Positions 29,631 through 57,012 are shown, counted from the stretch's first letter. The stretch: 64,000 nt of DNA from Terriglobia bacterium (GCA_020072965.1 JAIQFY010000005.1:62001-126000), one strand, 5' to 3'. Translations and numbers: made by a program. Notes: generated by a model from the letters alone, not told the origin.

Positions 29631-29688
29631 AGTTTCTCTTTCGCTCTTGATAGACAGTCTGGGTCCAACTGAGGTTGAGACTCTATAA

Positions 29689-30612: not shown

Positions 30613-30628
30613 GGGTCAACTGATCTCA

Positions 30629-31120: not shown

Positions 31121-31228
31121 TCCATTCAAGCGGCGACCGGACCACCGGGGCGGTTCGCGGAACCCGACAAACCGCTGCCATTTCGAACATTCCACTTTGG
31201 AGCTCATCAAAGCTCAACAAAGGGAAGG

Positions 31229-33016: not shown

Positions 33017-33165
33017 GTGAAGCCTCCAATAATATCAGATCTGAAAGTAAGGCCCTCCCGGGCCCACCCCAACGATTTCCACTGAGTTGCCCCCAGGAGT
33101 GTTGAGCATGTCCTCCTCAGCTTCTATCTGGAGCCGGGGGCAGACAGGTCGATCAACGATTGGCA

Positions 33166-34101: not shown

Positions 34102-34236
34102 AGGATTACTTCTTCCGACGGATGCCCTCTGAGTTCAGGCCTCTGCAAGCGACGGATCTCATGGCGGCCCGTTGTGATGGCATTCAGCTTCATTGTCAAA
34201 CGGGTTGTCTCCGACCTCAGGTACCACCTGAGATCA

Positions 34237-37529: not shown

Positions 37530-37535
37530 GCTGCG

Positions 37536-37541
37536 ATTATA
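37536..37541 (-). promoter_or_regulatory. -10 box placed for a leaderless permease transcript
   Basis: TATAAT on the reverse strand, followed by six nucleotides (CGCAGC) and the ATG at 37529, so the predicted transcription start is the A of the start codon. This is the same geometry as at 8457-8469. Confidence 0.45.
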
Positions 37542-37583
37542 TCGGGCGGGTCGAGAATTATGAATGGAAAACAAGAGAGGCGC

Positions 37584-37617
37584 AAAAAAAACCTGCGCGG
37601 AGGAGGAGACGCGCAGG
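37584..37617 (-). terminator. intrinsic terminator of the HD-GYP gene
   Basis: On the reverse strand CCTGCGCG and CGCGCAGG form a perfect 8-bp stem with a 10-nt loop, directly followed by eight T residues. It lies 48 nt after the stop codon of the HD-GYP gene. Confidence 0.88.
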
Positions 37618-37664
37618 GTCAAGTTGTTGCGTTGAATGGAAGAGAGAAATTTAGTGGTCCGACT

Positions 37665-40145
37665 TCACTGGACTGGAAACGGTTTCTCCTCTTCGGGGGT
37701 ATCCATGGCAAATGCAATCTGCTGGCGGCGTTTCTTTTGCGTGAACTTGTCAGCGTACATCCGGGAATCGGCGACCGACAGCAAGGTATCGGCGTCATTC
37801 CCGTCCTGCGGGAAGGTGGCGGATCCGATGCTAAGGGAAAGCTTGATAAACCGGCCGAACCGTTTTTCGGATTGGATCCCTTCGATAGCTGCTTGCACCT
37901 GTTGGATTTTCTTTTCGATGTCCTCTCCGACAAGCCCCGGCAGGGCCGCCATAAACTCATCCCCCCCGAGACGGGCTACAAAGTCGTAGTCCCGCAATGT
38001 GTTTTTGAAATACTTTGCAATTTGGCGCAGCACCTTGTCGCCGACGGCGTGCCCAAAGGTGTCGTTCACCTCCTTGAAGGAGTTCAAGTCCATAGCCAGG
38101 ATGGTCAACGCGGTCCCGTTACGACGGGCTCGTGCGATTTCCTCGTCCAGCTTGAGAAACATATGCCGCGAATTGGGAAGGCCGGTCAAATCATCCGTCA
38201 AGGAGTTTTCATAGGTTTGTTCAAACGTAATCGCATTCTTGATGGCGAGCGCAGTCTTGGAAGCAATGAGTTCCAGCACACGGAGGTTGTCTCCCACGAA
38301 CTTGTTGGGGGTCTCATCATAAAGCGTGATGACGCTGAGCACCTCTTCATTCACCTTGAGGGGGACCGACAGGGCGGACCGCATCAGAGTGAACCGTGCC
38401 GCGTCGCCCAGGTAGCCGAATTCCACCAGCGGATTGGAATTGATCAGAGGCCGTTTGTTTTCAGCCACCCAGCCGGTAACTCCTTCTCCCAGGGGGATGG
38501 CAAGGTCAGAGAAGGTTTCCTTCTCCTTCCCGTCGATGTATTGGGGCACAAGCTTCTCGTCCTGGCGCAGGTAGGCAACGCAGCAATCGCAGGGAATCAC
38601 CTTTCTGATCTTCGAAGCGATAAGGTTCAGCGTCTCAACAAGATTGAGACTGGTGCCCACAGTTTGAATCAGTTCGTACAGCGAATAAACTTCCTGATTC
38701 GAAGCGGCGATGTTTTGTAAATGATGAATCTGGGTGGACTCGCTGTATCCGGTTGCCGGGTGTGCCTGGGCCCCCTTAGGATTCGTTTTGAATGAAAAAG
38801 AGGGCAGATTGGCCGAGATCCGGTGGGCTTCCAGAGCAGCGGCCCGGGCTTCCTGTTCAAGGCTGGGATAAAGGCTTTCGAAGAGTTCGACGACCTTTGG
38901 ATCAAATGCTTTTCCCTTCTGTTCGTGAATGTACTTCATTGCCTCTTCAAGAGGCAGGGCCCGGCGGTAGGGACGATCCGAAGCCAGCGCATCGAAACAA
39001 TCCACCACGGAAAGGATACGCGCCGTAATGGGGATTTCTTCTCCTGCCAGCCCGTTCGGGTATCCTGTGCCATCATATTTTTCATGATGACACAGAACCA
39101 CCGGCACAACAGGATATGGGAAATTGACTGCGGAGAGAATTTCTGCCCCTACGAGGGGGTGAACTTTCATGCGCTCGAATTCTTCCGGGGTCAATCTCCC
39201 GGGTTTATTGAGAATATATTCCGGCACGGCCAGCTTCCCCACATCATGAAGCAGCGCCCCTGCCTTGATGGAATTGAGTTCGTCGTCACCCAGGCCCAAT
39301 GCCGTGCCAAGTCCAGTGGCAAAGATGCGAACCCGTTGTAGATGCAAATGCGTGGTTTCGTCCTTCGCATCAATGGCCAAAGCCAGCGTCTCAATGGTGC
39401 GCAGATGAAGATCGGCCATGTCGCGCAAGTGCAAATGGCTTTCCTCCAGGCGGCCCATGTACATCTTGTGGGTGAAATAAGTAAGGTAGAGTGGGGGAAG
39501 GGCAAGGAAGATAACGGCTATTCCATACCGCTGATAAAAGACCGTCAGCGCCCAGGCGATGGATGCACCCACATAAAAGCTGGGAGCAGTCCAATAGAAG
39601 TTCTCCAGCCAGACGCGTCTGAACCCCTTCGATTCACTGAGGGAAATGACGAGGCTGACAAGACATGTGCTAATGAAAAAATATATTGAAGTTCCAGTTA
39701 GCAATGGCAGGATCTGGATGCTATTTCGGAACCAAGCCAAATCCTTATTAAGGGCGTGTATTGCGGTGCAAGCGATTGCAACACTAACGACGAGATTACC
39801 AACATTGAATGTGAATTGATCTATGCGGAACCGAGGCTTCTCTGCTTTCGTATATTGGATGACCGCACAAATAGCTGCGATGAGAATGGACTCATTCGTT
39901 CCAAGCAGGAGCATGCTGGTAAAGACAAACGCATAAGATACTGAGATTGTGCCTGAAGAGGGGAGAACAACCTGAATCGACGCCGATATCGCTCCGAGGA
40001 TTGCCAGAGTAATCAGCTCTTTCCAGTGGGTAGAATATGTTACCCGGACGGCAGCGTTAACGAGGAAGTAACCGCCCAAAATAGACGTCAACGCAATCAG
40101 AAAGCTTAAGAGCCGTGTTTCTTTGGTCGGGTTGTTCAAGTCCAA
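37665..40145 (-). CDS. membrane HD-GYP / GAF / GGDEF protein (bifunctional c-di-GMP enzyme)
   Basis: An 826-residue inner-membrane protein with both a c-di-GMP phosphodiesterase and a diguanylate cyclase domain. About seven transmembrane helices (10-230) lead to an HD-GYP domain (about 240-430) with HDVGK and CHHEKYDGTGYPNG intact. A GAF domain follows (about 480-640), then a C-terminal GGDEF domain (about 650-805) with RLGGDEF intact and an RxxD inhibitory site (RDYD) five residues before it. HD-GYP and GGDEF with a GAF between is unusual; GGDEF-EAL is the common pairing. Start is a TTG with GAGGGGG 5 nt upstream. A strong terminator follows. It begins 84 nt after the subtilase gene on the same strand. 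Confidence 0.9.
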   Translation of the reverse strand: MDLNNPTKETRLLSFLIALTSILGGYFLVNAAVRVTYSTHWKELITLAILGAISASIQVVLPSSGTISVSYAFVFTSMLLLGTNESILIAAICAVIQYTKAEKPRFRIDQFTFNVGNLVVSVAIACTAIHALNKDLAWFRNSIQILPLLTGTSIYFFISTCLVSLVISLSESKGFRRVWLENFYWTAPSFYVGASIAWALTVFYQRYGIAVIFLALPPLYLTYFTHKMYMGRLEESHLHLRDMADLHLRTIETLALAIDAKDETTHLHLQRVRIFATGLGTALGLGDDELNSIKAGALLHDVGKLAVPEYILNKPGRLTPEEFERMKVHPLVGAEILSAVNFPYPVVPVVLCHHEKYDGTGYPNGLAGEEIPITARILSVVDCFDALASDRPYRRALPLEEAMKYIHEQKGKAFDPKVVELFESLYPSLEQEARAAALEAHRISANLPSFSFKTNPKGAQAHPATGYSESTQIHHLQNIAASNQEVYSLYELIQTVGTSLNLVETLNLIASKIRKVIPCDCCVAYLRQDEKLVPQYIDGKEKETFSDLAIPLGEGVTGWVAENKRPLINSNPLVEFGYLGDAARFTLMRSALSVPLKVNEEVLSVITLYDETPNKFVGDNLRVLELIASKTALAIKNAITFEQTYENSLTDDLTGLPNSRHMFLKLDEEIARARRNGTALTILAMDLNSFKEVNDTFGHAVGDKVLRQIAKYFKNTLRDYDFVARLGGDEFMAALPGLVGEDIEKKIQQVQAAIEGIQSEKRFGRFIKLSLSIGSATFPQDGNDADTLLSVADSRMYADKFTQKKRRQQIAFAMDTPEEEKPFPVQ

Positions 40146-40228
40146 TCTTTCCCCCTCATTAAGCCGTCAATCCCAAGGACTGCGTTGACAAAGAAGGAAA
40201 TGGCTTCAATCGACGAGAGAGTTTTGAG

Positions 40229-42184
40229 TTAATCTTCACCCTGAATTGAGAATGATGAGCTCCAGAGCACATTGCTGTTGCTCCAAAGAACATTGCTGCT
40301 TGCGGCTATCGGCATCCCTCCCTGAAAGTCGGGACTCCATAGTGAGCTGGACATTAGGACGGGATTTAGAGATTGTGCAGCACCTGCACCAATATAACTC
40401 CCACCTGTTGCAATATTTCCACCCCAGATGACACTACTACCCCACAGCACATTTCCACTGCTCCAAAGTACGTTGCTGCTTCCCCACAACACATTACCAC
40501 TACTCCATAACGCGTTGCCATTACTCCACAGCACATTGCCGCTTCCCCAGGCAACCTGATTGCTCCAGATCGCCAAATTGTTCTCAATGATACCACCCCA
40601 CAGCAGATTTTCTCCCCAAATAATGTTGCCCCCCCAATTAACAGTTTCCCCCTGGATTGAGTTTTGCGTGCTCAACGCTTTTCCATTGTCAATGAGCTGC
40701 GAAGAACCCATTGGAGTCCTGGTCGACGTGAGGTTCTGTGCTAGCATCACCGCACCATAAGTGTTCAAGTACCCTGCGCCCTGAACAACGAAGGGCAACC
40801 GGAGGTCCTGCGCCGTGACCATGAGGATGGCTTTGACCAAATTCGGGGTCAGATCGGGATGGGCTTGCAGCATCAGGGCGACTGTGCCCGACACTACGGC
40901 GGTGGCCATGGATGTTCCGCTCAGGGTGAAGTAATGAACCTTTTTAATCTCAGTTCCCCCAGGCGAACTGTAATAAGACGGGTCCACACGATTCTGGGGA
41001 AAGAGATCGAATAAATCGTTCATATTCGGGCTGGGATCGGCGATCGATTTCACCCGGTTTCCAGCTGCAACCAGGTCCGGCTTGGAAAGGAGATCAAAGG
41101 CCGTGGGGCCTCGCGAACTGTAGTCCGCGATGGCGTCGTCTGAACGGAAGGGTGTTCCCTGGGACTTCGTCGCGCCCACAGTAATGACCTGCGGATCATG
41201 CCCGGGGCTTGTAATTCCGCCATACACTATTTTTCCAAATTCATCTTTACCATAGTTGCCCGCCGCAACAACAACTACAATCCCGGCCCTGACAGCGGCC
41301 TCACATGCTTGCGCAAGGGGATCCGTCTTGTAAGATTCCGTTACCGGATGCCCCAGGGAAAGGTTAATGATCCGAATGTTGTACTTGAATCTATTTTGAA
41401 TTACCCATTGGATCCCTTCGATGACGTCACTTACATAACCTGATCCGTCATCTCCCAGGACCTTGACACTGATGACTTTCGCCTTCGGCGCGATACCCGA
41501 AAGCGCTCCATCGGATTCCCCTCCGCTACCGGCAATGATCCCAGCGACGTGGGTTCCATGACCATAACTGTCGTCCATTGATCCGGCGTTCGCCAGGGCG
41601 TTGCCAGTGGACCCAACTGTGCTCCATTGAACGAGGATTCGGCTGCCGGTCCGAGGAGAACCATCCAGGTCTCTGCCATGGGGAGATACGCCGGAATCGA
41701 GTACGGCGATCCCGATACCATTTCCTTCGACCCCATACTCCATTCGGGCAATATCCGCGCCGACGGCCTTGACAGTGATGTCATTCGAAGGTCTTACAAC
41801 ATGATCCTCCGAGATTCCTTCGATTCCCGGGATTTGGGCCAACTCATCCAGTCCCCTGATCTCCACTTCGGCGGCCAGTCCAGTGATTACCCAGAATTCC
41901 TTTTTGACTCGTCCCCCGTGCCCTTCAAGCCTATCGTAAAGGGCCTGGTTAAGCCGCGATTTTGAACGGGTCGAATCGTCCGGCAATGGCGCAGTCCGGA
42001 TGATGATCGGGACTGTGCCGCGGTCCCCCCGCCTCACTCTGTCGCGAAGGGATTCGTCCAGTTTGTCCAAGCCTCCCCCTAAGCAGACCATTGGCAGCGA
42101 TAACGCTACCACCATGAACAGCCATAGAATAGGATGTCGGTGTCGCATGGACCCAGTTCTCCAATCAGTGAATTGTTGTTTCAT
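40229..42184 (-). CDS. subtilisin-like S8 peptidase with C-terminal tandem N-V-L-W repeats
   Basis: A secreted serine protease of 651 residues. Signal peptide with hydrophobic core WLFMVVALSLPMVC. An I9-like propeptide region (about 40-130) is followed by the catalytic domain with Asp in GIAVLDSGV, His in SYGHGTHVAGI and Ser in LSGTSMATAVVSG. After the catalytic domain, about 12 copies of a 6-7-residue unit (consensus N-V-L-W-S/G-S-G) run from about residue 515 to 590, with two more near the end; the tail ends SIQGED. The ATG at 42184 overlaps the stop of the 69-codon gene (ATGA), implying translational coupling. An ATG at 42148 is an alternative. It probably matures or degrades peptides exported by the locus. 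Confidence 0.88.
   Translation of the reverse strand: MKQQFTDWRTGSMRHRHPILWLFMVVALSLPMVCLGGGLDKLDESLRDRVRRGDRGTVPIIIRTAPLPDDSTRSKSRLNQALYDRLEGHGGRVKKEFWVITGLAAEVEIRGLDELAQIPGIEGISEDHVVRPSNDITVKAVGADIARMEYGVEGNGIGIAVLDSGVSPHGRDLDGSPRTGSRILVQWSTVGSTGNALANAGSMDDSYGHGTHVAGIIAGSGGESDGALSGIAPKAKVISVKVLGDDGSGYVSDVIEGIQWVIQNRFKYNIRIINLSLGHPVTESYKTDPLAQACEAAVRAGIVVVVAAGNYGKDEFGKIVYGGITSPGHDPQVITVGATKSQGTPFRSDDAIADYSSRGPTAFDLLSKPDLVAAGNRVKSIADPSPNMNDLFDLFPQNRVDPSYYSSPGGTEIKKVHYFTLSGTSMATAVVSGTVALMLQAHPDLTPNLVKAILMVTAQDLRLPFVVQGAGYLNTYGAVMLAQNLTSTRTPMGSSQLIDNGKALSTQNSIQGETVNWGGNIIWGENLLWGGIIENNLAIWSNQVAWGSGNVLWSNGNALWSSGNVLWGSSNVLWSSGNVLWGSSVIWGGNIATGGSYIGAGAAQSLNPVLMSSSLWSPDFQGGMPIAASSNVLWSNSNVLWSSSFSIQGED
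40424..40639. repeat. tandem 18-21-bp repeats coding for the N-V-L-W units
   Basis: Degenerate tandem units in the 3' part of the subtilase gene, each coding for one N-x-x-W-S/G-S/G-(G) unit. Two further units lie at about 40262-40297. Codon differences between units show that they are not a very recent expansion. Confidence 0.75.
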
Positions 42185-42390
42185 TCGACGAAGAACTGAC
42201 TCGACTCGCCTAGAGAGAAGATCGGCTGGAAGTCCGCCGGGCCAGGGGAATTCCAAACCAGACGCGCACCACGAAAAGTCATTGAATTGAACTCAAAATC
42301 TCCAACTGATCCGAGTGACTGCAAGGGCGGATTTTTTCGACGGCGGTCTCCGCTCTTTTGATCCCGAGTTTTTGATTTGTTTGGGGCCAT
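42181..42390 (-). CDS. 69-residue peptide, candidate substrate or partner of the adjacent subtilase
   Basis: Small gene with a perfect AGGAGG 7-8 nt before its ATG. Its TGA overlaps the ATG of the subtilase (ATGA). The N-terminal third is strongly basic (APNKSKTRDQKSGDRRRK), the middle and C-terminal part are uncharged and aromatic (FNSMTF, RLVWNS, FQPIF, SSQFFVE). It has no signal peptide, transmembrane helix or cysteine. The basic start followed by a neutral, aromatic, Ser/Gly/Pro-rich tail resembles a precursor peptide with leader and core, but no family is recognised. Tight coupling to the protease suggests that the two products act together, as substrate, inhibitor or chaperone. Confidence 0.7.
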   Translation of the reverse strand: MAPNKSKTRDQKSGDRRRKNPPLQSLGSVGDFEFNSMTFRGARLVWNSPGPADFQPIFSLGESSQFFVE

Positions 42391-42993
42391 TGATTTTCCT
42401 CCTCAAATTGTATTCGTACTCTCACACATTCCCGGCGCGAAACTGTTTGAGTATGGGCACTACTGCAGTTACAGTTCAGCAACCTGTACGCCAAGCTTGG
42501 TCCTATGGGATTTCAACGGGTTACAAGGGGAAATCGTCAATACGCTCAGGTTTGTGGTCAAAATGACCGACAGAATTTCAGTCAATGTGACTGAATTATA
42601 GAATTCGGATCCAGTGCCAGAGATAAGCGTTTTGGCGAAAAAAGGAGAACCTACCAGAGGCAAAACTCAAGGTGAAGGAGGACCTTATATCACCCCTGAT
42701 GATGGAATCTGGAGGAAGCCTTATGGGTTGAAGGAAAGGGTATCGGGATTCGTTCCTCACCTGAGGACAGACTCCATCCGACAATCAGTTGGATTTAGAT
42801 TGAATGGGGAGGAAATCCCTTTCATACCCCAACGGTTTCGAGGGAGGGACAAAGGCAGGAGAGGGCTCTCTTGGGGTAGGTTATATTGAAGGTATTCGGG
42901 TGTCCGGGGTAACCAATCCGTATGCTGGAGCGCACTCCGAACTGGCCCCGATGACGGAGCGAGGAGGTGTAGTGAGCAATTGAAGGGCAGGAA
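42391..42993. other. 603-nt intergenic region upstream of the 69-residue peptide gene
   Basis: Separates the peptide/subtilase pair from the M50-HlyD gene. Open frames on both strands (for example plus-strand 42614-42889) lack ribosome-binding sites and composition typical of genes here. AGGAGG-like stretches at 42676 and 42711 on the plus strand are not followed by usable starts. Composition is somewhat more A/T-rich than the flanks. Confidence 0.45.
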
Positions 42994-45384
42994 TTAGAAC
43001 CAAGACCAGAATTCTGTGCGAATAAATCTTACCAGTCTCCGGGAGACAAGCTCTCCAATGGTTCGTTTTCCGCAGTATATCTTGGCGTAGCCCGTCATTT
43101 CAGGTTTTAGAAGAAGGTCGGGGTTGTTTATCTCACTTCTGACCATGAGGATTCGTCCATTCTTATCCTGTGGGTCGGCAATATCGGATATCTGCGTCAC
43201 TTTTCCATCAAACTCTTTGCTAGGATAGGCATTAGCTTTTAATCGCACATAAAAACCGATCTTCACGTCCCCAACTTCTTTTTCCGGGACGGGAATTTCG
43301 GTGAGTACCTTCTGTGTGTTCGCCACCTGGCAGATTACGTCCCCCTGTTCCAGATAGGCTTTTTCCTGTTGCTTAAGAAAATGCGTCGTAATGATGCCAT
43401 CGATAGGACTTCGGATCGCAGTATAGGTACTTTCAGTATCAAGCAGGGTCCGTTGGGAGACCAATCCTTCAATCTGAGCCCGCTTTGCCTCGATTTCCTC
43501 AGCACGTGTCCCTGCCATCACTTTGGCCAGGGCCTTGCGGGCCTCCTGGTATAACCTTCGCTTCTCCTCGACGTCGTGCTGAACCTCGTCGAATTCCCGC
43601 TTTCGAATATTGAGGTCACGCTGGGCTTCATCGAAAGACATCGAAGCGAGGAGCTTCTCGTCAAACAGTCTTTTCACCCGCTCGTAATTCTTGTTCGCAT
43701 AATCCAGCCGTTCGCGGGCAATGGGCGCTTGAGCTTCCGCCTTTTTGATGGAGGCTTCTGCCCGATCGACCTGGGATTGCGCCAGGGCGATCTCTTCCTT
43801 GGAAGGGCCTGCCACCATCAGTTGCAATCGCGCCTGGGCTTCTGAAATATCCGCCGAAGTCTTGGCCTTCTCTCCGCTGTACTTGTAATCCGCAAGACGG
43901 GCGATGACATCGCCCTTGTGAACGGTCTGCCCCTCGTCGAAATAGATTTGCTCAATTGTTCCTGGAACCTCTGCTCTAACATCCGCCCGTTCGAAAGGAA
44001 TCAAGCTGCATTCGCTGGCCACCTTGAGCTCCCACCGGCCCAAGGTAAGCACGAGAAAGCCGCATAGGCAAAAAAAACCGGTGACAAAAAGATTCCTGTA
44101 TCTCGACACGCTCTGCTTCTTTTCGGTCATTTTCCTGGGAAGGATGTGTTCAATCGTCTGGACCAGCGGATCGCTCACCACGAACAATGCGACGCCCCAG
44201 AACAGTATAAAACCTGTTCCTTGATATTGCTCAACAAAAAACTGTTCAAACCTCAGAACAAAATATTTGATCAGGCTGAATGAATAGATGAAGGCGATCA
44301 TCCCGTAGAGCCAATAGATTCTCCGCTCTCGCCGTGAAAGACCCCCGATGGCGCCCGATGTTCCCGTGATGATTGATTTTGACTTTGCCCGAAGCCAGGC
44401 AAAGGATTTCGACCGCAGATTCGGGATTGAAAAGAGTTCGGACAGAATGTAGTACCCGTCAAGCTTGATGAGCGGATTGAATTGAAGGATCGTGACGAAC
44501 CCTGTTATCGCAACATTGATAAAAATGAATTGGGCGATCAAGCTTTCAGGAGTCAATATCCGCCAAAGAAGGGTTAAGAGAGCCCAAAGGAAAGTCTGAA
44601 TGTAAACGCCGGCAGTCATCACCCAGAGTCGCTGAGATTTTTTCGCGAAAACATAGCTGTCGCTGACATTGCAGAAACATGCAGGTTGGAAGTACAGGAG
44701 AAGGAATCCCATCTCGTGTACCTCTCCCCCAAAATATTTACAGGCCAATCCATGGGCCATTTCATGAAGGATAAGAATTGGCATCATGATAACAAGCGCC
44801 CAGAGGACGGATGTCGTTGAATACAAGGTCCGAACCTGGTCCGTGATTTCGGTCCAATTGAATGCGGTCACACACGCTGCAGCCAGGATTGTTACAATGA
44901 CAAGAAATAAGAAGGTGGACGTGAAGAGAAATCTGGTATGAGGCAACAACCGGTTGAAGAGCGTGTCGGGATCGAAATAGGCAATCTTCCAAAACAATAA
45001 TCTGCCCAGGCGGGAACGTTTCTTATTTTCACGGGAAAACGAATAGTAGGGCGAGGTGCGGGCAAGGGGCAGCAAAGCGGGTTGCCCTGTTTGTGATGTT
45101 TCCTGTTCATTTGTCTCAAGTAAATGCTTAGCGCCCAGCTTATCAACGAAGTTCGAAAGTCCTTCTACAGTGACGTTGAGATGCAGCTCGTCTTTGAGAC
45201 GAGCTGCTACTTGGTCGATGGTCAGCGTCCCCCCAAATTGATTCGCGATCAAAAATTCGTGATGCCTTAACCGAAAAAACCTTCTCGATTGGGGGTCCTT
45301 TATGATGTAGACAGTCTGATCCCCCTCAGCCTGTTCGGCTATGATCAAATCGCGCCGCAATTTTGGGTAATATGAAGATTCCAT
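42994..45384 (-). CDS. PqqD-like / M50 site-2 protease / HlyD fusion, peptide processing and export protein
   Basis: A 796-residue membrane protein. The first about 85 residues form a PqqD-like winged-helix domain (IIKDPQSRRFFRLRHHEFLI, then TIDQVAARL), the fold that binds RiPP leader peptides. A membrane M50 metalloprotease core follows, with the zinc motif LHEMAHGLACKYFGGE and the second site FNPLIKLDGYY, and about 8-9 helices (about 130-430). The last part is a HlyD membrane-fusion adaptor with biotinyl-lipoyl halves (VPGTIEQIYFDEGQTVHKGD and IRSPIDGIIT) flanking a long coiled coil. This combination is the putative peptide zinc metalloprotease type found with RiPP and bacteriocin loci. The ATG at 45384 is chosen; a TTG at 45414 is in frame. 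No clear Shine-Dalgarno. Confidence 0.85.
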   Translation of the reverse strand: MESSYYPKLRRDLIIAEQAEGDQTVYIIKDPQSRRFFRLRHHEFLIANQFGGTLTIDQVAARLKDELHLNVTVEGLSNFVDKLGAKHLLETNEQETSQTGQPALLPLARTSPYYSFSRENKKRSRLGRLLFWKIAYFDPDTLFNRLLPHTRFLFTSTFLFLVIVTILAAACVTAFNWTEITDQVRTLYSTTSVLWALVIMMPILILHEMAHGLACKYFGGEVHEMGFLLLYFQPACFCNVSDSYVFAKKSQRLWVMTAGVYIQTFLWALLTLLWRILTPESLIAQFIFINVAITGFVTILQFNPLIKLDGYYILSELFSIPNLRSKSFAWLRAKSKSIITGTSGAIGGLSRRERRIYWLYGMIAFIYSFSLIKYFVLRFEQFFVEQYQGTGFILFWGVALFVVSDPLVQTIEHILPRKMTEKKQSVSRYRNLFVTGFFCLCGFLVLTLGRWELKVASECSLIPFERADVRAEVPGTIEQIYFDEGQTVHKGDVIARLADYKYSGEKAKTSADISEAQARLQLMVAGPSKEEIALAQSQVDRAEASIKKAEAQAPIARERLDYANKNYERVKRLFDEKLLASMSFDEAQRDLNIRKREFDEVQHDVEEKRRLYQEARKALAKVMAGTRAEEIEAKRAQIEGLVSQRTLLDTESTYTAIRSPIDGIITTHFLKQQEKAYLEQGDVICQVANTQKVLTEIPVPEKEVGDVKIGFYVRLKANAYPSKEFDGKVTQISDIADPQDKNGRILMVRSEINNPDLLLKPEMTGYAKIYCGKRTIGELVSRRLVRFIRTEFWSWF

Positions 45385-45482
45385 TTGCGTCTTGGAAAGA
45401 TTGATGTCTCTCAATAGAAGGCTTGAGCAGGATCACCCACTATCGAATGAGATTCGCGGGCCGCTGGCTTCATGAATGCTTC

Positions 45483-45725
45483 TTAGTAGATTGAATTGCG
45501 CCTGCCCCGCCTGGGGTGGATCCATAGAAACAATTCAGATTTTGCAGTGAGAATTCCCAAACTGCTAAGGAGAGCTAAGAACAGAAGCAGTGTCAAATAC
45601 TGGGGACCGACAACGCAGAGCAGTGTAACCTCCAACAATACGCAGAGAAAGCAGACAAACTTAAGATAATGCGAAGGTCTTTTCATTGCAGTCGTGTCGC
45701 GCCTCCTGTCGCCTTTCCACCCCAT
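45483..45725 (-). CDS. small two-helix membrane protein (66-80 aa), unknown
   Basis: Contains two closely spaced hydrophobic helices (FVCFLCVLLEVTLLCVV and LTLLLFLALLSSLGIL) and a strongly basic end (HPRRGRRNS). The ATG at 45725 gives 80 residues but lacks a ribosome-binding site. The ATG at 45686 gives 66 residues starting with MKRPSHYLKF; AGGAGG lies about 15 nt upstream of it. It lies between the 24-codon peptide gene and the M50-HlyD gene on the same strand. Small membrane proteins in peptide-secretion loci often serve as immunity or accessory factors; that role is inference. Confidence 0.6.
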   Translation of the reverse strand: MGWKGDRRRDTTAMKRPSHYLKFVCFLCVLLEVTLLCVVGPQYLTLLLFLALLSSLGILTAKSELFLWIHPRRGRRNSIY

Positions 45726-45737
45726 CAGGTATTCGAA

Positions 45738-45783
45738 GGCGGCTCGTATTTTATAGTCTTTTTTAATTAGTCAATGAGCCGCC
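45738..45783 (-). promoter_or_regulatory. stem-loop between the 24-codon peptide gene and downstream genes
   Basis: GGCGGCTC (45738-45745) and GAGCCGCC (45776-45783) form a perfect 8-bp GC-rich stem around a 30-nt A/T-rich loop, 28 nt after the peptide's stop. In precursor-peptide operons such a structure often stabilises the short precursor mRNA or attenuates read-through; here that is inference. Confidence 0.4.
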
Positions 45784-45810
45784 CCAAACGACCAACGATC
45801 TTCCTCAATT

Positions 45811-45885
45811 CTAGCTAACCCAGATTACATTCGGAGCTATCTTTTCCTCGAGCTCCTCAACCTCAAGAACCAGATTCTCTTCCAT
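45811..45885 (-). CDS. 24-residue peptide, candidate RiPP precursor
   Basis: A 25-codon gene with AGGAGG exactly 7 nt (all A) before the ATG, the strongest ribosome-binding site in the region. The product has an acidic helical first part (LEVEELEEKIAP) and a short hydrophobic end NVIWVS. Acidic E-L-E-E-K-I-A-P type sequences look like leader peptides, and the six-residue tail would be the core. It stands at the head of a co-directional set with a small membrane protein and a PqqD-M50-HlyD exporter/protease. The tail resembles the N-V-L-W-S-S repeats of the subtilase at 40229. No modifying enzyme such as a radical SAM or YcaO protein is in the window. The assignment as a precursor is inference; the gene itself is well supported. 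Confidence 0.7.
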   Translation of the reverse strand: MEENLVLEVEELEEKIAPNVIWVS

Positions 45886-46430
45886 TTTTTTTCCTCCTCA
45901 AGAACGAGCAGATTCAATTTCAGCGAGCGCATCTCAAATTCTAAAAACCCTGTCAATTCTCTTTTGGGGTCATACTGAAATCATTTGGTTGACGGGAACT
46001 TGGGTTTCCCGCTTGGGACCTCCCTCGTCCCCGTCTCCCCCTCCCCTCGTCACTGAGGAGATCTATGAGCGGAGAAGCGAAGGTACCTTCTCTACGACTC
46101 CAGAGTTGATTCTCTCAACTCTTTGAAACTATTTGTCTTTGTTATATACACGAGTAAGGCCAATCTCTACTCATTTGATAAATTTATATAAGCTATTTAA
46201 AATAAATGCTTTATTTATAAATGCGTGGGCAGTGACGAATGGGTAAATATATTGAAACCGAAAATAACTTATCAGTATAAGTGATTATAATTCTTGGAGG
46301 TGATTTATTATTAAGAAGTCGACTCCATTTGACGGATACTTAGTTGTAGAGTTTATTTCAAACAGACAGGTTGGGGATTGATATCTGATTTGGAGGAGGT
46401 GTGTCAAGGCAGCGAGTTATCGGGTGCGGC
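45886..46430. other. 545-nt A/T-rich regulatory region
   Basis: The stretch 46120-46400 is strikingly A/T-rich compared with the rest of the window. On the plus strand TTGAAA (46252) and TATAAG (46276) are spaced by 18 nt, with GGAGG at 46296 and again at 46391. On the minus strand TTGACA occurs about 70-80 nt upstream of the 24-codon peptide gene without a good -10. It probably holds the promoter(s) of the peptide locus. Confidence 0.45.
46252..46281 (+). promoter_or_regulatory. sigma-70-like promoter pointing away from the peptide locus
   Basis: TTGAAA (46252-46257), an 18-nt spacer, TATAAG (46276-46281). It would drive a transcript antisense to the 3' end of the kinase-regulator gene. A ribosome-binding-like GGAGG follows at 46296-46300 but no usual start codon. 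Confidence 0.35.
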
Positions 46431-49400
46431 TCAGGCAGAGGAGATTTTTTGACGGTAGGGCTTATAGTCAACCTGACAGGAATGTTTTTTCAAAAAATTC
46501 ATAAATACAGTATATTCAGTAACTTGAAGATGAAACGGTTCCAGGAGGTCTTTATATCTTCCTTTGGACTCCTCCAATCCGAGCTTGACTACCTCCCGTA
46601 CCAGTTCCTTAGAAATTTCTCTTTTCATGAAAGGTTCCTTTACAACCTTCCAAAAGGAGACTTTTTCCTGCTTCATCTGTCGGAACAAGACCATGGCTTG
46701 TCCTTTTTCCTCGCTACTTTGTTCGCTAATTGAAGGGGCGAGAATTGGCCGAAGAGAATCTTCCACAGCGTGGATCGGTGAAGCGACCTCAGGAGCGCCT
46801 GGTTTCCCCTCGAGTTGAGAAATCTCAGGTGGAAAGTCGACGACCTGAATTTCCACCTGCTGAGCCATATAAAAAGCACTCTCCACAAGGTTTTCCAACT
46901 CGCGTACATTCCCTGGGAAAGGATACTCCATCAGCAATTGAAGAGCATCATGATCGATCGTGTGGCGCATCGTGGGATTCTGCTCTTCAAGCTGTTTCAG
47001 GAGATGATTCACCAGCAAGGGGATGTCTTCTTTGTGGTCCCTGAGAGGAGGAACTTGAAGGGCCAACACATTGAGCCGGTAGAAGAGGTCCTCGCGGAAA
47101 TCACCGTTTTGGACCATATGCTTGAGATCCCGGTTCGTCGCGGCAATAATTCGCACGTCCACTTTGCGGTCTTGAGAATCTCCCACTCTGCGGATCTCTC
47201 GCTCCTGGATCACCCGAAGGAGCTTGGCTTGTAAGGCGCGACTCGTGTTCGTAATTTCGTCCAGGAAAATCGTCCCCCCGTCTGCCTCCTCAAACAACCC
47301 CTTCTTGTCGAAGATAGCACCAGTGAATGCACCTCTCTTATAGCCGAACAGTTCACTCTCAATGAGGTTTTCCGGGATCGCACCGCAATCAATGGCGATG
47401 AACCTTTTTTCCTTGCGGGCGCCGTTGTAGTGGATGGCGCGGGCGATGAGTTCCTTTCCGGTCCCACTGTCTCCCGAAATCAGGACATTGGCCGAGCTGT
47501 TTACAACGTTGTCCAGCCTTCGGAACAAATCCGTCATCTTGGGGCTACGGCCCACAATATTCTCATACGCGTACTTGCCTCGCACCTCTTGGCGAAGATA
47601 GATATTCTCCAGGCTCAGTTTCTCGTATAACCGCGAGTTCTCAATTGCGATCGCGAAGAGATTGGTAAAAGATAATAGGAAGTTGACCTCCTCCTCATTA
47701 AACGGGAGAGTAGCCACAGGGTTGTCAATATAAACTGCCCCCACGATTTTCTCCTTAACCTTCAGGGGGATGCATAACACCATTCCTATTCCAAAATCGA
47801 CAATGGAATGGCGGTCCCGAAGACGCAAATCATCACGGGCGTTTACTGAAATCAGGGGTTTACCGCCGTGCATAACCTCTTCGAGCACCGTCTTGCTGAT
47901 TGCCGTGGCGTCGTCCAGTGTGGCCTTGCTGATGTTTCGAGCGGCCTTCACCTCTAGTTCGCCTGACACCTCGTCCACCAGGAGTATCAGACCGCGTTCC
48001 ACACGAATCGCCTCTAACACCAAATCCATCACACGTTCCAGCAAATCGTTGAGATTCAAAATGGAATTGACGATCTTGGAAATTTGAAAGAGAGTGAGAG
48101 AATAACTTTGACGGGTTGCAAGAGGGTCAGCAAGGTTTTTGGCGGTCATGATGAAGTTCTTGCCCCCTCTAGTGACTCCCGCAGACGGTTCCAGTGGTCC
48201 CAATATAGCGGCCCGTGGCTTCTTTTCCAAATACTTTTTTCTCAGGGCCTCCGGAAGTCTCCCTGCAATACCCGTGATGATAGACCGTGCATGTTGTGCC
48301 TGGACACCGGCGTTATGGGGGTCGCCCTGGGCCTGATACCAAAGACTCAAGGAGTATCTTGCCTCTGCGAGCAGGTCAGCTTCCTGGGTCATTTCCGCAA
48401 AACGAAGAGCCTGGTGCAAGTCCTCAGCACCCGAATGCTGAAACGGATCCGTTTTGGCAAGGGCCAATCGGCCTCGTAATAAATGGAATTGTGCCTTCAA
48501 GAGTGGATTTTGCGTCCCTTCTGCGAGTGATGACAATTCTTCGACGGTCGGTTGGTGTCGATCAGGAAGGGCCCTGCTTAAAGCAGCATTGCTGCCAAGC
48601 AGTAATATCTGGAGGAGCCAATCGCGATGATTGAGTTTTTTGGCAAGGGTCATAGCCTGAGCAACAGAGCTCTCGGCCTTTGACCACTCCTCCTGATCAA
48701 TCTTTATCTTCGTCAAGTTAACCCGGCCGATTAGCTCTTCAAGCTGGCTCCCGGTCTTTACGGAAAGACCGATCGCGTCGTCAGCAAAGGCTTGAGCGTG
48801 CTCGGTGTCTCCGACCTTTTCGTACCATTCAGTCATGCGATTAAGAATTGAGATCTTTGCTTGCTCGTTGTGCGTTTCATTTGCCAAACTAAGGGCTCTA
48901 TTTAAGGCATTTAACGCCTTTTCAAGTTCTCCCAAGTGTGTCCAGTTTTCGCCGCGGTTTAGCCACACTAACATTTCAACAAATTTCTCTGGAATAATCT
49001 TATTTAGTTTTTCAGCAAGATCTACATACTCAAGTGATGTGGTGTATTCACCAAGCTTGGAATGGATGCTCGATATATTTATATAAGACTGCTTCATGCC
49101 GCGGTGGTTGAATATTTTCTCCCGAAGATGTAAGGAGCGACGTTGGTAATCAAGGGCTCTCCTATAGTCATGAAGATAATCCTCGTAGAGCGCGCCCAAA
49201 TTTGCTGTGACTCCTGCTATCCCTGTCATCCAGCCAAACCTTGTGAAGACTGCTATCGCGCGATGCCCAGCCTCGATGGCTCTTTTGTATTCACCTAAGC
49301 AGAAGTAGATTGCAAATTGACTATTGAAAATATCCCCAAGGCCAAAAAAATTCTCTAATTGTTCCACCTCGATCAATGCGCGATTTACATATTCAAGCGC

Positions 49401-51914
49401 TATGTGAAAATCGGACAAGTGTTGATATTGCCAGCCAATTCTCGAAAGGATTTCAGCCCTTGTCATAGGTTCTGGAAGGGACTGAATCAAAGTGAGACCT
49501 CTGTTAAAAATATCGATCGCCTTACGATAATCCCCGCTGATTTCGGCGAGCATTCCCAACCGCAAATGCAATTTTGCGGTTCTGCCTGGTGTAAGGTGCT
49601 TTTCACCTTCGTTCACCAGAAAACGATATATTCGTTCCGCTTCATCGACGTTGCCCAATTGATAATGACAGAAAGCAATTTTCTCCCTAATCTCAAGTAA
49701 TGGCAAATCAGATGTTCCAGTGAACTCTTCGGCCATTCGATAGGCGGTAATTGCATTTGCATAGGAAAAGAGCTGGCGTAATTTGTCCCCCGCTCGGACG
49801 GAGTAGAGTCTTCCTTTCTCTTGGTTACCAGCAGCTCCAAAATGGTACGCGAGTGTCTCAGAATGATCCGATAATCTCGAAGCCGGATCTTCCTCGAAAA
49901 ACTGGGCGATTCTTGAGTGCAACGTTATCGAGTAGTCGCTAGTTACCCCTGATTCCAGAGTTTTCTTCATTTGAGAATGCTGGAAGAAGTAATGGGGGTC
50001 CTCGACGGCATCTATTCGGGCCAGAATTGCTCGTTCTACGAGTTTGTCCAGTTCTGCCTTGACATGAGCCAGAGGCCTGCCTAACACGAAGGAAAGAGCT
50101 GCCAGGGAAGCGGGCTTGATGAAGAGAGCGAGAGTCTGAAGCAGATCCCGCTCGGAGGACGAAAGATACCCGATGCGGCGGAGAAAGGCATCAGCCATGG
50201 TCTGGGGAACCTGAAGGGAATCCAGTACGGCCGGCTCCGCGTCCCACGTTCCCGATCTGGGGGAGAGAATCTTTTCTTCCATCCAGGTCCAAATGACTTC
50301 CTGGATAAAGAACGGATTTCCCTTTGTTTCATCGACTATTCGCTGAACCAAAGGGGCAGGGGCCCGTTCGGTGCCGATCATTGAATTGACGAGATCGCTG
50401 ACCTCGTGAGGCGAAAGAGGTTTCAGCACGAGGGTGTCGGTCGACTCGAGACTGCTCAAGACAGGTAATGCAGGTTCAAGTGCTGAGCCCATGACCTCAT
50501 CGGACCGGTAACTAACGCCAAGAATCAGGCGCTGGGATTGAAGTCCCCGGGCGATGCGCTCGATGAGCTGCAATGAGAGCGGGTCGGCCCAGTGAATGTC
50601 CTCGATCAAGATAAGCGTGGGATGATCTGCACAGACTTCGAGGACAAAAGCGGCCAGTGATTCCAAAAGCAATTCCTTCTCATTCGCGGAGGGGGGTGTC
50701 GCGGGTTGGAGCTTGCCTTCAAAGAGCCCAGGAAGAACCCGGCTCAGGGCCGCCTCGTACTTATCGGGAACTGCCCGCTGTGCTGAGGTCACTTGTTGAG
50801 TGCTCAGAACCATGGGACGGAGAACGTCGATCAAACACTGGAACGGCTGCGTTATTTTTTCATAGGCGGCGCCAGCGAAGGTCCTGGCCCCTTCTAATTG
50901 AGCTTGAATTTTCAGCTCATCCAAAAGGCGAGTCTTCCCGACGCCACTCTCCCCGCCCACCAAAACGAGGCGACCTCCCGTCCCCTTCAGCACCTGTTGA
51001 AGCATCTTCTTCAGTTGCGCCTGTTCCGTCGCGCGTCCAACGAACTTGCCGCTGCGGACATAGTCCTTCGCCGTCTCCTGCGTCTCGATTTCAAATTGAT
51101 AGCCCAGGCTTTGGTTGAATGCCTTGATCAACTCATCAGGAGTTTGAAACCGGTTATCAGGATCCCGGTCCAAAAGCCGTAGCACGATCGTATCGATCGC
51201 CACCGGCAGGGTTCCGTCCTTTTCGGTCGGCGGGTCAGGATTCACGTTCAGTTTCATATCGACGAGCAATTCCGGATCGATGTCGCCAAATGGAAGCTGC
51301 CGGCTAAAGAGCTGATAGAAGACCACCCCCAGGGCGTAAAGGTCCGAGCGCGCATCCAGTGGCCGTCCTTTGATGGCCTCGGGGGCAAGATAGGCAAAAG
51401 TGCCGCTCAAGCGATGCCTCGCCTGGTCATCGATATGGCGAGCCAGTCCGAAATCCAGCACCTTGGTACTGGCTTCGCCCGGCCGTGTGCCAGTAAGCAC
51501 CAGGATATTCTCGGGCTTTAAATCTGCGTGAATGTAGCCTCTCGCATGAATGTAAGTGAGCGCGCGGCAAATCTCGACAGCGCGCTCCAGTTTCTCACTG
51601 AAGCCCATTTGAGCCGTTCCCGTGATCAAGTCCTCCCCGACACAATACTCGGACGTAAAAAAGGGATCGCCTTGAACGGTGTATCCGAAATCATATACCG
51701 AGGACAAGTTGGGGTGACGAAGCTGCTTAAGCGCGGTGAATTCACGCATGAAGAACTCACGGGTTCCCTCCGAGAGAATGCCGCGCTGGAGTTTCTTCAA
51801 AGCGACCTGCCGGCCATTCTCCCAGAGATCCTCGACGAGGAAAACTTCACCCATTCCGCCTTCGCCGAGCGGGCGTACGATCTGGTAGCGTTTCGTAATC
51901 ATGTTCCGGGGCAT
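46431..51914 (-). CDS. Ser/Thr kinase - AAA ATPase - TPR - GAF - sigma-54 activator fusion protein
   Basis: An 1,827-residue one-piece signalling protein. The N-terminal kinase (about 8-270) has GEGGMGEVF, VALKKL, HADLKPEN (HAD in place of HRD) and DFGLAR. A PknK/MalT-like AAA ATPase domain follows (Walker A GGESGVGKT near 320, LILIEDIHWADP), then a long TPR-rich region (about 700-1190) and a GAF domain (about 1250-1400). Next is a complete sigma-54 interaction AAA+ domain (about 1440-1670) with GDSGTGKE, GAFTGA and PGNVRELENLVE. The C-terminus (about 1750-1827, KGRYKDLLEPFHLQ) is not a Fis-type helix-turn-helix. It should activate sigma-54 promoters in response to kinase, GAF and TPR inputs. 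It starts 18 nt after the peptide-binding lipoprotein gene and is upstream of the peptide locus. Confidence 0.88.
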   Translation of the reverse strand: MPRNMITKRYQIVRPLGEGGMGEVFLVEDLWENGRQVALKKLQRGILSEGTREFFMREFTALKQLRHPNLSSVYDFGYTVQGDPFFTSEYCVGEDLITGTAQMGFSEKLERAVEICRALTYIHARGYIHADLKPENILVLTGTRPGEASTKVLDFGLARHIDDQARHRLSGTFAYLAPEAIKGRPLDARSDLYALGVVFYQLFSRQLPFGDIDPELLVDMKLNVNPDPPTEKDGTLPVAIDTIVLRLLDRDPDNRFQTPDELIKAFNQSLGYQFEIETQETAKDYVRSGKFVGRATEQAQLKKMLQQVLKGTGGRLVLVGGESGVGKTRLLDELKIQAQLEGARTFAGAAYEKITQPFQCLIDVLRPMVLSTQQVTSAQRAVPDKYEAALSRVLPGLFEGKLQPATPPSANEKELLLESLAAFVLEVCADHPTLILIEDIHWADPLSLQLIERIARGLQSQRLILGVSYRSDEVMGSALEPALPVLSSLESTDTLVLKPLSPHEVSDLVNSMIGTERAPAPLVQRIVDETKGNPFFIQEVIWTWMEEKILSPRSGTWDAEPAVLDSLQVPQTMADAFLRRIGYLSSSERDLLQTLALFIKPASLAALSFVLGRPLAHVKAELDKLVERAILARIDAVEDPHYFFQHSQMKKTLESGVTSDYSITLHSRIAQFFEEDPASRLSDHSETLAYHFGAAGNQEKGRLYSVRAGDKLRQLFSYANAITAYRMAEEFTGTSDLPLLEIREKIAFCHYQLGNVDEAERIYRFLVNEGEKHLTPGRTAKLHLRLGMLAEISGDYRKAIDIFNRGLTLIQSLPEPMTRAEILSRIGWQYQHLSDFHIALEYVNRALIEVEQLENFFGLGDIFNSQFAIYFCLGEYKRAIEAGHRAIAVFTRFGWMTGIAGVTANLGALYEDYLHDYRRALDYQRRSLHLREKIFNHRGMKQSYINISSIHSKLGEYTTSLEYVDLAEKLNKIIPEKFVEMLVWLNRGENWTHLGELEKALNALNRALSLANETHNEQAKISILNRMTEWYEKVGDTEHAQAFADDAIGLSVKTGSQLEELIGRVNLTKIKIDQEEWSKAESSVAQAMTLAKKLNHRDWLLQILLLGSNAALSRALPDRHQPTVEELSSLAEGTQNPLLKAQFHLLRGRLALAKTDPFQHSGAEDLHQALRFAEMTQEADLLAEARYSLSLWYQAQGDPHNAGVQAQHARSIITGIAGRLPEALRKKYLEKKPRAAILGPLEPSAGVTRGGKNFIMTAKNLADPLATRQSYSLTLFQISKIVNSILNLNDLLERVMDLVLEAIRVERGLILLVDEVSGELEVKAARNISKATLDDATAISKTVLEEVMHGGKPLISVNARDDLRLRDRHSIVDFGIGMVLCIPLKVKEKIVGAVYIDNPVATLPFNEEEVNFLLSFTNLFAIAIENSRLYEKLSLENIYLRQEVRGKYAYENIVGRSPKMTDLFRRLDNVVNSSANVLISGDSGTGKELIARAIHYNGARKEKRFIAIDCGAIPENLIESELFGYKRGAFTGAIFDKKGLFEEADGGTIFLDEITNTSRALQAKLLRVIQEREIRRVGDSQDRKVDVRIIAATNRDLKHMVQNGDFREDLFYRLNVLALQVPPLRDHKEDIPLLVNHLLKQLEEQNPTMRHTIDHDALQLLMEYPFPGNVRELENLVESAFYMAQQVEIQVVDFPPEISQLEGKPGAPEVASPIHAVEDSLRPILAPSISEQSSEEKGQAMVLFRQMKQEKVSFWKVVKEPFMKREISKELVREVVKLGLEESKGRYKDLLEPFHLQVTEYTVFMNFLKKHSCQVDYKPYRQKISSA

Positions 51915-51932: not shown

Positions 51933-53729
51933 TTACTTCAAATAGAGTTGCTCACAATTCCAGAGGGTATGATGGTCCAGAACAGTCGGGCGAAAGTTTC
52001 CGACCCGGCTCTTTGCCGCGACGAGAACGTCGCGGGAGATCAGGTAGATGAAGGGAAGCTGTTCGGTGACGATCAACTGGACTTCATCGAATGCCTTCTT
52101 GCGCTCGTCATTGCTTGGAGCAGTCGATTGGCCGAGCATTAACTCGTCGAGGCGCTCCTCCCAGGGGGTGGCTGGTTTCTTTTGATTGGGGAACCACTGG
52201 TGGTTGGGTGCGCCCGATAGCCACAGATTCATTTGACCGCTGGGATCTGTGTCCACGTTGGTGGGGCCCAACAGGCACGCATCATAATCAAAGTTTTCCA
52301 TAATCCGCCCGATCAAAGAACTGAATTCGAGAGGGGTGAAGTCGACTTGAATTCCAATTTTCTCCAGGTCATTTTGCACCAGGGCCCCAATTTTCTCCCG
52401 GTTTCGGTTTCCGGCGTTGGTGATCATTGAAAACCGGACAGGCCGCTGTGCGCCATCCTTCAGTTGGAGTTGACCCTTGACGGTGGACCAATGGAAGCCC
52501 GCTTCAGAGAGCAATTTCTTCGCTTGATCCACATCATAGGGATACTGCTTGATGGATGGGTTGTACCAGAACTTGTTTGAGATGGTCAGTGGTCCGTAAG
52601 CCTCTGTGGCGCGACCCTGGTACACCAACTCGACGAGGCTTTTCCGGTTTATGGCATAGGAAATAGCCTGCCGGAACTGCGTACTGGTGAACCAGTCCAG
52701 CTTGGACCGGCTCACAAAGGGTCGGTGGGTTTTGGGGTCTATGTCCCGGTTTTGGTTGAACCAGAGAAGTTCACTGCCCAGGCTCGGTCCGAGATCCTTC
52801 GCCACGACCTCAGAAGAGCCCGATTCCCTTGTAAGGATGGAATAATCTTCCGCCCGAAGATCATTGAGGACATCCAGATCTCCCGACTTGAAATTTAGGA
52901 ACTGTGTCTCCCGATTCGGTATGATTACGAGGATCAAGCGGGACAGGTAGGGAAGCCTTCTGCTTTTGGCGTCAACCTTCCAGTAGTGAGGATTTCGCTC
53001 CAGCTCCAACCTTTGGCCCGGCGTGTATCGGCTGAATCTGAAGGGCCCCAGCCCCACAATCTCGCCCGGGGGGGACGTCAAAGACCAGGCCGAAGCAAAA
53101 CTCCCGGCGTTATAGGCCGGTTCCAACTTGTGTTTTGGCAGAATAAACACAGAATCAAAGACCCGCTCGAGTCCGGCGGCAGGTTGTGAAAACGTGAACT
53201 CAATCTCATGGTCTCCCATCTTCTTGAGTGCGAAGGGCTGTCCGTGTACCTTCAACTGATCTGCCTGGGGGGAGTTGACCTTGGGATCATAAATCACCTG
53301 AAAGGTAAACATTACGTCATCTGCTGTAAACGGCCGGCCGTCGGAAAAGAGGATTCCTTCTCTCAAGTGCATAGTCATGGTCCGCCTGTCCGGCGAATAT
53401 TCCCAGGATTTCGCCAGAGACGGCTCAGGACGTTGGGTTTCACGATTAATATGGATCAAATCCGCGAAGATTCGATCGGCGATATCTGCAGTGGCCGTAT
53501 CACTGGATACTATCCGATTGAAGGAGCGAGGCTCCTGTCCGATGGCAGTGACCAGGGTACCGCCGTACCGTCCGGCGGTACCATCCATCAGGAGAGCATC
53601 CTTGGAGAGGGGCCCCCAGTTTTCCACCTGGTCTTGGGGCGGCTTTTTTCGCGAGCAGCCGGAATTCAAGCATAAGCCAACGAGCAAGATAGCCATACCC
53701 ATCCAACATCCGGCAATTCTACGCTTCAT
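51933..53729 (-). CDS. peptide ABC transporter substrate-binding lipoprotein
   Basis: A 598-residue SBP_bac_5 family protein. Lipoprotein signal AILLVGLCLNSGC places it on the outer face of the inner membrane. The family pattern is clear: LAKSWEYSPDRRTMTMHLREG near the start and FRQAISYAINRKSLVELVYQG in the middle. It should bind oligopeptides or muropeptides. The ATG at 53729 is chosen because GAGGAG lies 5 nt upstream and the signal peptide starts there; an in-frame extension to 53864 is rejected. No permease is adjacent. Instead, the kinase-sigma-54 regulator follows within 18 nt, suggesting that the binding protein serves in sensing, or works with the permeases at 35504-37529. Confidence 0.88.
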   Translation of the reverse strand: MKRRIAGCWMGMAILLVGLCLNSGCSRKKPPQDQVENWGPLSKDALLMDGTAGRYGGTLVTAIGQEPRSFNRIVSSDTATADIADRIFADLIHINRETQRPEPSLAKSWEYSPDRRTMTMHLREGILFSDGRPFTADDVMFTFQVIYDPKVNSPQADQLKVHGQPFALKKMGDHEIEFTFSQPAAGLERVFDSVFILPKHKLEPAYNAGSFASAWSLTSPPGEIVGLGPFRFSRYTPGQRLELERNPHYWKVDAKSRRLPYLSRLILVIIPNRETQFLNFKSGDLDVLNDLRAEDYSILTRESGSSEVVAKDLGPSLGSELLWFNQNRDIDPKTHRPFVSRSKLDWFTSTQFRQAISYAINRKSLVELVYQGRATEAYGPLTISNKFWYNPSIKQYPYDVDQAKKLLSEAGFHWSTVKGQLQLKDGAQRPVRFSMITNAGNRNREKIGALVQNDLEKIGIQVDFTPLEFSSLIGRIMENFDYDACLLGPTNVDTDPSGQMNLWLSGAPNHQWFPNQKKPATPWEERLDELMLGQSTAPSNDERKKAFDEVQLIVTEQLPFIYLISRDVLVAAKSRVGNFRPTVLDHHTLWNCEQLYLK

Positions 53730-53790
53730 ACGTACTCCTCGTGGTCTAAGAAAAGGTAAGTGAAGGTAACCTCCAGGGGAGGCGGGGAGG

Positions 53791-53809
53791 ACAAAATGCG
53801 ACATTTTGT
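53791..53809. promoter_or_regulatory. palindromic operator in the divergent promoter region
   Basis: ACAAAATG-CGA-CATTTTGT is a perfect 8-bp inverted repeat with a 3-nt centre. It lies between the divergent binding-protein and NtrC-like genes. Overlapping it, TTGTGAAGTTTT (53806) and TTGTGACAATTT (53826) form an imperfect direct repeat 20 nt apart, two helical turns. Both patterns fit binding by a dimeric or oligomeric regulator. Confidence 0.5.
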
Positions 53810-53971
53810 GAAGTTTTGACTCGGGTTGTGACAATTTCGTAAAGAATCCGAGCAAAGATTCCAATGCAAGGTGACGAAAGGGTTAACAGGGTCGCCTCCT
53901 CGGAAAGTTCTCCTCTCAGGAGGAACACTCTCCAACGCATTTTAAAACACTTTACTCTAGTGAACAACATT

Positions 53972-56977: not shown

Positions 56978-57012
56978 CGATCTATAGCTTCTTCCCCAAA
57001 TAAGGTGAATGC

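Follow-up and report, generated by a model that had tools for sequence, protein, structure and literature searches.

The precursors of daptides carry an ELExMEAP motif and are encoded beside a protein in which a RiPP recognition element (RRE; RiPP, ribosomally synthesized and post-translationally modified peptide) is fused to a site-2 protease (PMC10036551). The daptide leader is removed by that RRE-site-2 protease, with proline as position -1 (PMC10036551). Reports of daptides cover Actinomycetota, Bacillota, and a single Pseudomonadota cluster, and the peptides have been tested by haemolysis assays (PMC10036551). Here we compare with them a locus of a Terriglobia bacterium (GCA_020072965.1), contained in a stretch of 64,000 nucleotides (JAIQFY010000005.1:62001-126000; hereafter the window, in whose coordinates all positions are given). 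In this locus a gene for a 24-residue peptide accompanies a gene for an 806-residue protein that joins a PqqD-like RRE domain, an M50 site-2 protease, and a HlyD membrane-fusion part. A preliminary description had called these genes, together with a small membrane protein, a 69-mer, and a secreted subtilase, an undescribed peptide system. That label does not fit the recognition and protease half, which is of a known kind, since the leader is a daptide-type ELExxxAP, while the fusion to HlyD in the absence of daptide enzymes sets the locus apart.

The 24-mer gene (45811..45885, minus strand) encodes MEENLVLEVEELEEKIAPNVIWVS, and is read as a leader of residues 1-18 (MEENLVLEVEELEEKIAP; 45885-45832, minus) followed by a predicted product of residues 19-24, NVIWVS (45831-45814, minus). 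Like the daptide systems (MpaA/DapA with MpaP/DapP), which have short precursors, often several per locus, it has an E-L-E-x-x-x-A-P leader, although the window's EELEEKIAP has K rather than M at position -4 and I rather than E at position -3, so that the agreement is one of type and not of letters. The two differ further downstream. The window product is about six residues long with a tryptophan and lacks a branched-chain stretch, and the invariant C-terminal threonine of daptides, whose C-terminus is a dimethyl-propanediamine, is absent, the core ending in serine in the window and in valine and asparagine in its orthologs. Among the scanned proteins of the window, none next to the gene is a daptide enzyme of the MpaB/C/D/M type, and homologous loci have no such conserved neighbour; the window protease, unlike that of daptides, is fused to HlyD. 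The YydF/YydH epipeptide system likewise has an M50 protease in a peptide locus (a weak NF058609 match in the window) but has a radical SAM enzyme, which the window cassette lacks, along with a different leader and no HlyD fusion.

The 806-residue protein (42994..45414, minus) matches the NCBIfam model daptide_HExxH (NF041824) over residues 25-409 with an E-value of 4e-56, at 190.7 bits and thus under the curated cut-off of 300 bits. When a profile of its N-terminal domain (about residues 15-103; 45106..45372, minus), built from 14 homologs, was searched against the PDB up to E 10, it retrieved five chains, all of them PqqD or RRE; these matches are weak singly and consistent together (3g2b, 0.017; 5v1u, 0.027; 6jx3; 5sxy; 5vrd). 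A single-sequence AlphaFold2 model of the domain, of low confidence (pLDDT 56), shows the EEE-HHH topology. The HExxH zinc motif (residues 217-221, with H217, E218, and H221; 44752..44766, minus) and an LDG motif (D319) are invariant across 20 aligned homologs, and by this alignment the catalytic motifs of the site-2 protease are intact. The HlyD part (about residues 470-806; 42994..44007, minus) matches HlyD_D23 and RND_mfp and is EmrA/MacA-like in the PDB. The presence of PqqD, M50, and HlyD in one protein, as first described, is confirmed by HlyD_D23 (E 7e-23), M50 (E 2e-4), and the PqqD/RRE structure matches. A scan of genome contigs for related loci with the single 806-residue protein gave a match at the HlyD level only.

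Because ELEEKIAP aligns without gaps to the daptide ELExMEAP, RRE binding followed by a cut after Ala-Pro is the most economical account of the pair. The leader (LVLEVEELEEKIAP) would be bound by the PqqD-like RRE domain, and the fused site-2 protease would cut after Ala-Pro to release NVIWVS, the corresponding products in relatives being NILWGV and NVIWTGN. The HlyD part would then pass the released hydrophobic peptide to the periplasm or beyond. As no daptide modification enzyme was found beside the gene, the product is probably unmodified. We infer binding, the cleavage site (by transfer from the daptide work), export, and the lack of modification, as well as the signalling role considered below. 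The predicted products are short enough for synthesis and direct testing, and the scheme would extend the leader and protease logic of daptides to peptides without daptide enzymes.

Comparative evidence identifies the 24-mer as a true gene. Two other genomes carry the cassette, one from the same genus (82% identity in the RRE-protease part) and one from the same family (50%), and their 24-mer orthologs, MEENLVLEVEELEEIVAPNILWGV and MEEILVLEVEELEDKTAPNVIWTGN, are each preceded by AGGAGG and share with the window the core N-[VI]-[IL]-W. The window's own Shine-Dalgarno site (45893..45898, minus) lies 7 nt before the ATG. Over its 18 leader codons, the family ortholog differs from the window gene by seven synonymous and three non-synonymous codon changes; 9 of the 12 substituted bases are at third codon positions, and the flanks have diverged. 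It is on these orthologs, their Shine-Dalgarno sites, and the mainly synonymous change that we accept the gene. A degenerate form of the leader pattern has a single match in the 5.9-Mb genome and none in the reversed control. The small peptides had no meaningful match in PHROGs, Pfam, or NCBIfam.

Leader peptides and fusion proteins across the phylum

Relatives of the fusion protein are present in 65 of the phylum's 396 genomes searched, and to see whether the pairing is general, the surroundings of about 60 of these relatives were scanned for short open reading frames (ORFs) with such leaders. Leader ORFs numbered 47 within -1.5 to +4.2 kb of the fusion gene (318 kb in total), as against 3 at greater distance (567 kb) and none in control loci (189 kb). 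The expectation of the preliminary description that similar leaders should stand beside homologous M50-HlyD genes was thus borne out, short E-L-E-x-[KR]-x-[AT]-P leader ORFs adjoining these homologs, and so was its pairing of the 24-mer, as a precursor, with the PqqD-M50-HlyD protein. A strict leader pattern was present in 20 of the 65 genomes that have the fusion protein and in 19 of the 331 that do not (one-sided Fisher p 8e-8). The regular expression of the scan and this pattern were both fitted to the earliest examples, which makes the ratios somewhat favourable, and genomes that are related do not count as independent samples. We consider the precursor and protease pairing, as read from these sequences, very probably correct.

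The leaders are much alike (VEELEERIAP, IEELEQRIAP, VERLEKRIAP, VQELESRIAP, IEILETRETP), and the downstream part is clade-specific. One type consists of 5-9 residues with a conserved tryptophan (SVLWI, VIVWT, MIVWY, GVLWTIGQP, NVIWVS), and such short W-containing products occur in two separate clades. Others are GYEGQPGNQ repeats, TRAAIAMG, Gly/Ser/Lys-rich stretches, and a tail some 80 residues long. The peptide types track the tree of the protease region, requiring five changes, which is the minimum. Many loci come from fragmented assemblies, and in the main clade (33 proteins) a contig end truncates one side of each of the nine loci that lack a peptide. Two loci, L053 and L058, carry three tandem copies each, which differ silently and encode identical products. 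Of eight other sites examined in protein-bearing genomes, six hold a further ORF that resembles a precursor, and one of these six is close to a second fusion gene.

Taken together, these peptides form a widespread precursor family; no Pfam or NCBIfam model for it was found, and a literature search on the leader string, LEPR-XLL, and the fusion architecture returned nothing describing it. The pairing also offers a testable substrate rule for proteins named 'PqqD family peptide modification chaperone', namely ELExxxAP with a cut after proline.

Two groups of loci were seen in passing. In L079, L104, L106, L107, and L108, all of one family, the leader runs into a conserved tail some 80 residues long (GLFGFLQSLA...), so that the product is of another kind. 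L173, L174, L175, L176, L178, and L179 have precursor-like ORFs with the same leader, mostly distant from the best fusion-gene match and, in L173, as a tandem pair.

Plasmid homologs and LEPR-XLL proteins

Homologs of the fusion protein are found on plasmids of Alphaproteobacteria and of one enterobacterium, and several of them bear the chaperone name given above. Like the window system, these plasmid systems combine a homologous RRE-M50-HlyD protein with an N-terminal E-x-[LFIM]-E-x-R-[IVL]; theirs, however, is a cargo of thousands of residues, the motif ends in LLSAD rather than AP, and the operons include DUF3467 and extra HlyD proteins, joined at some loci by TolC or a SecA-like protein. 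LEPR-XLL-like giant proteins occur at the plasmid loci L161, L162, L163, L166, L167, L170, and L171. Five giant proteins begin in a LETFEPRVLLSAD-like manner and a sixth begins SLEPRMLFDGA. Both giant plasmid proteins tested match the LEPR-XLL model NF012209 (E 1e-6 and 6e-8), and neither the 24-mer nor a precursor of about 95 residues matches this 24-residue model at E 10. The LExRIAP and LEPR-XLL motifs align with an hhalign p of 0.001 over 12 columns (permutation, 21 of 5000); the precursor-like ORF of L179 reads KFEELEPRIAPS, intermediate between the two forms. The resemblance between leader and LEPR-XLL motif is no more than suggestive, and with it comes a possible function for the LEPR-XLL domain.

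These homologs bear on the alternative that survives best, in which the fusion protein would be a general leader-directed secretion machine for anything from a mini-peptide to a giant surface protein, and the window peptide would have a structural or other role. It overlaps the reading of the 24-mer as a signal precursor in all but the role of the product. The downstream parts of the phylum's precursors, ranging from 5 to about 80 residues, fit such a machine, as do the giant proteins adjoining the plasmid homologs, but the likeness of LExRIAP to LEPR-XLL goes no further than stated, and the giant protein of L172 lacks the motif at its annotated start. We regard this alternative as a real possibility, short of probable. 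A combined form, in which one export machine would serve ELExRxAP leaders in the phylum, LEPR-XLL proteins in proteobacteria, and ELExMEAP daptides, with cargo from 6 to more than 10,000 residues, and the window product would be a signal read by the TPR/sigma-54 regulator described below, seems to us somewhat unlikely.

The role of the product

In RRNPP-type signalling (Rap/PlcR/NprR), an exported peptide is re-imported by an Opp transporter and bound by a TPR receptor. The window's family likewise clusters genes for a very short peptide, a secreted subtilase, an Opp transporter, and a TPR protein. It differs from RRNPP in that the regulator is a kinase-sigma-54 activator, the precursor has no signal peptide, and the Opp linkage is confined to one family. 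The regulator, a protein of 1827 residues with Ser/Thr kinase, AAA16, TPR, GAF, and sigma-54 activator domains (46431..51914, minus), is the strongest functional neighbour of the fusion gene. Relatives stand beside the fusion gene in family f1 at full length, and in families f4 and f30 over most or large parts at roughly 22-49% identity by segment, and the window's own genome has no other full-length match. Within the family, the cassette is flanked by an oligopeptide ATP-binding cassette (ABC) transporter substrate-binding protein (family 5; 51933..53864, minus), syntenic within the genus, and by two Opp/Dpp-type permease genes (36558-37622 and 35504-36478, minus; the first BPD_transp_1), syntenic in genus and family. 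A MASE9-HD-GYP-GAF-GGDEF protein (37665..40145, minus) also has relatives by the fusion gene, in f1, f4, f12, and f30, but this adjacency is weak by itself because the HD-GYP/GGDEF family is present in 113 of the 396 genomes.

As no modifying enzyme was found in the window and the predicted length is only about six residues, the product may be a chemical signal, and NVIWVS would feed the neighbouring TPR/sigma-54 regulator. Given that the pairing is correct, we hold a signal role only tentatively. The reading as a whole, of a leader-guided precursor that is cut and exported as a mini-peptide, most likely a signal, is the one that we favour with moderate confidence.

Several observations weigh against it. 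The HlyD adaptor in the fusion protein recalls type I secretion, but no ABC transporter, TolC, or other energised partner adjoins the window's fusion gene. A modifying enzyme may be encoded elsewhere in the genome. A related M50-HlyD clade (15 rows in the tree) has no leader peptides. Opp relatives were not found at the fusion-gene loci of other families, and the Opp genes of the window, whose cluster is flanked by genes for amino-sugar and peptidoglycan recycling, may for that reason serve muropeptide uptake instead. Finally, a signal role cannot be general, since several precursors have long hydrophilic or roughly 80-residue downstream parts. In the leader-less clade, at L068-L070, L073-L076, L098, L100, and L101, other HlyD-type genes are often found upstream.

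The product might instead act on the neighbouring subtilase, as inhibitor, assembly partner, or substrate mimic. The subtilase (40229..42184, minus) is a secreted protein with an S8 domain, as first proposed (E 4e-53), and its C-terminal tail is made of N[VI][IL]W repeats (at about 40236-40640). Peptide and subtilase genes share one cluster, and in all three genomes of the family the peptide cores NVIW, NILW, and NVIW match the subtilase repeats NVLW, NIIW, and NVIW. However, the f30 loci have W-core peptides without a subtilase, and of the 17 genomes among the 396 with NxxW-repeat proteins, the other 16 have no fusion-protein match; 14 of 16 examined NxxW-repeat loci match the subtilase domain. 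From this independent distribution, the W-repeat subtilase is a separate module that shares the cluster in the window's family, and its earlier assignment to that system as a dedicated component is not supported. An action of the peptide on the subtilase is unlikely. Loci L142-L156, from genomes without the fusion protein, hold subtilases with long NIVW/NVLW-type repeat tails, a few of them with a sigma-54 regulator and an HD-GYP protein nearby.

Membrane-active or antimicrobial products, as daptides are thought to be, would be in keeping with the haemolysis-tested peptides that have the same type of leader and protease, and with the several precursor copies of some loci. An unmodified product of six residues is nevertheless too short to span a membrane, the cores of tandem copies are identical and without diversification, and no immunity gene was recognised; we think such products quite improbable. 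That the 24-mer, very short as it is, is an accidental ORF or goes unprocessed is highly unlikely, given the start, Shine-Dalgarno site, leader, and core kept in two relatives with mostly synonymous change, the uniqueness of the leader pattern in the genome, and the pairing of leader and protein across the phylum.

Other features of the cluster and the window

The preliminary description was accurate in the layout of the cluster: five consecutive minus-strand genes are present, both small genes (24-mer and 69-mer) have AGGAGG 7 nt upstream, and the subtilase overlaps the 69-mer through an ATGA (ATG at 42184, ORF 40229-42256). It was also accurate in that no radical SAM, YcaO, or LanM match was obtained in Pfam or NCBIfam scans of nearly all sizeable ORFs of the window. 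The 69-mer (42181..42390, minus) has a conserved FRGARxxWN...FQPxF, is 85% conserved in the genus, and has a divergent ortholog in the family; no counterpart was seen upstream of other W-subtilases. The small membrane protein of 80 residues (45483..45725, minus) has two hydrophobic stretches and orthologs of 68% and 38% identity, and may start at an internal ATG. Both of these proteins were found in the window's family only.

No RNA family of Rfam was found within 40000-46700, a promoter consensus scan gave nothing clearly above chance, and a canonical terminator was not found. Directly 3' of the 24-mer gene, a hairpin (45734..45787, minus) is present in all three genomes with a different sequence in each (z -4.0, -5.2, and -4.7); it is a possible attenuator or 3' stabiliser, and a U-tract is missing in the window. 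The GC-rich block at 45940-46130, between the regulator and the 24-mer, contains inverted repeats (AGAGTTGA...TCAACTCT), has no match in Rfam, and is strongly conserved in the genus. The amino-sugar and peptidoglycan-recycling genes that flank the cluster (28461-35277 and 55613-57948) are those for NagA, MurQ, NagK-like, NagB-like, and NamZ proteins, and a class A beta-lactamase-like gene is found among them.

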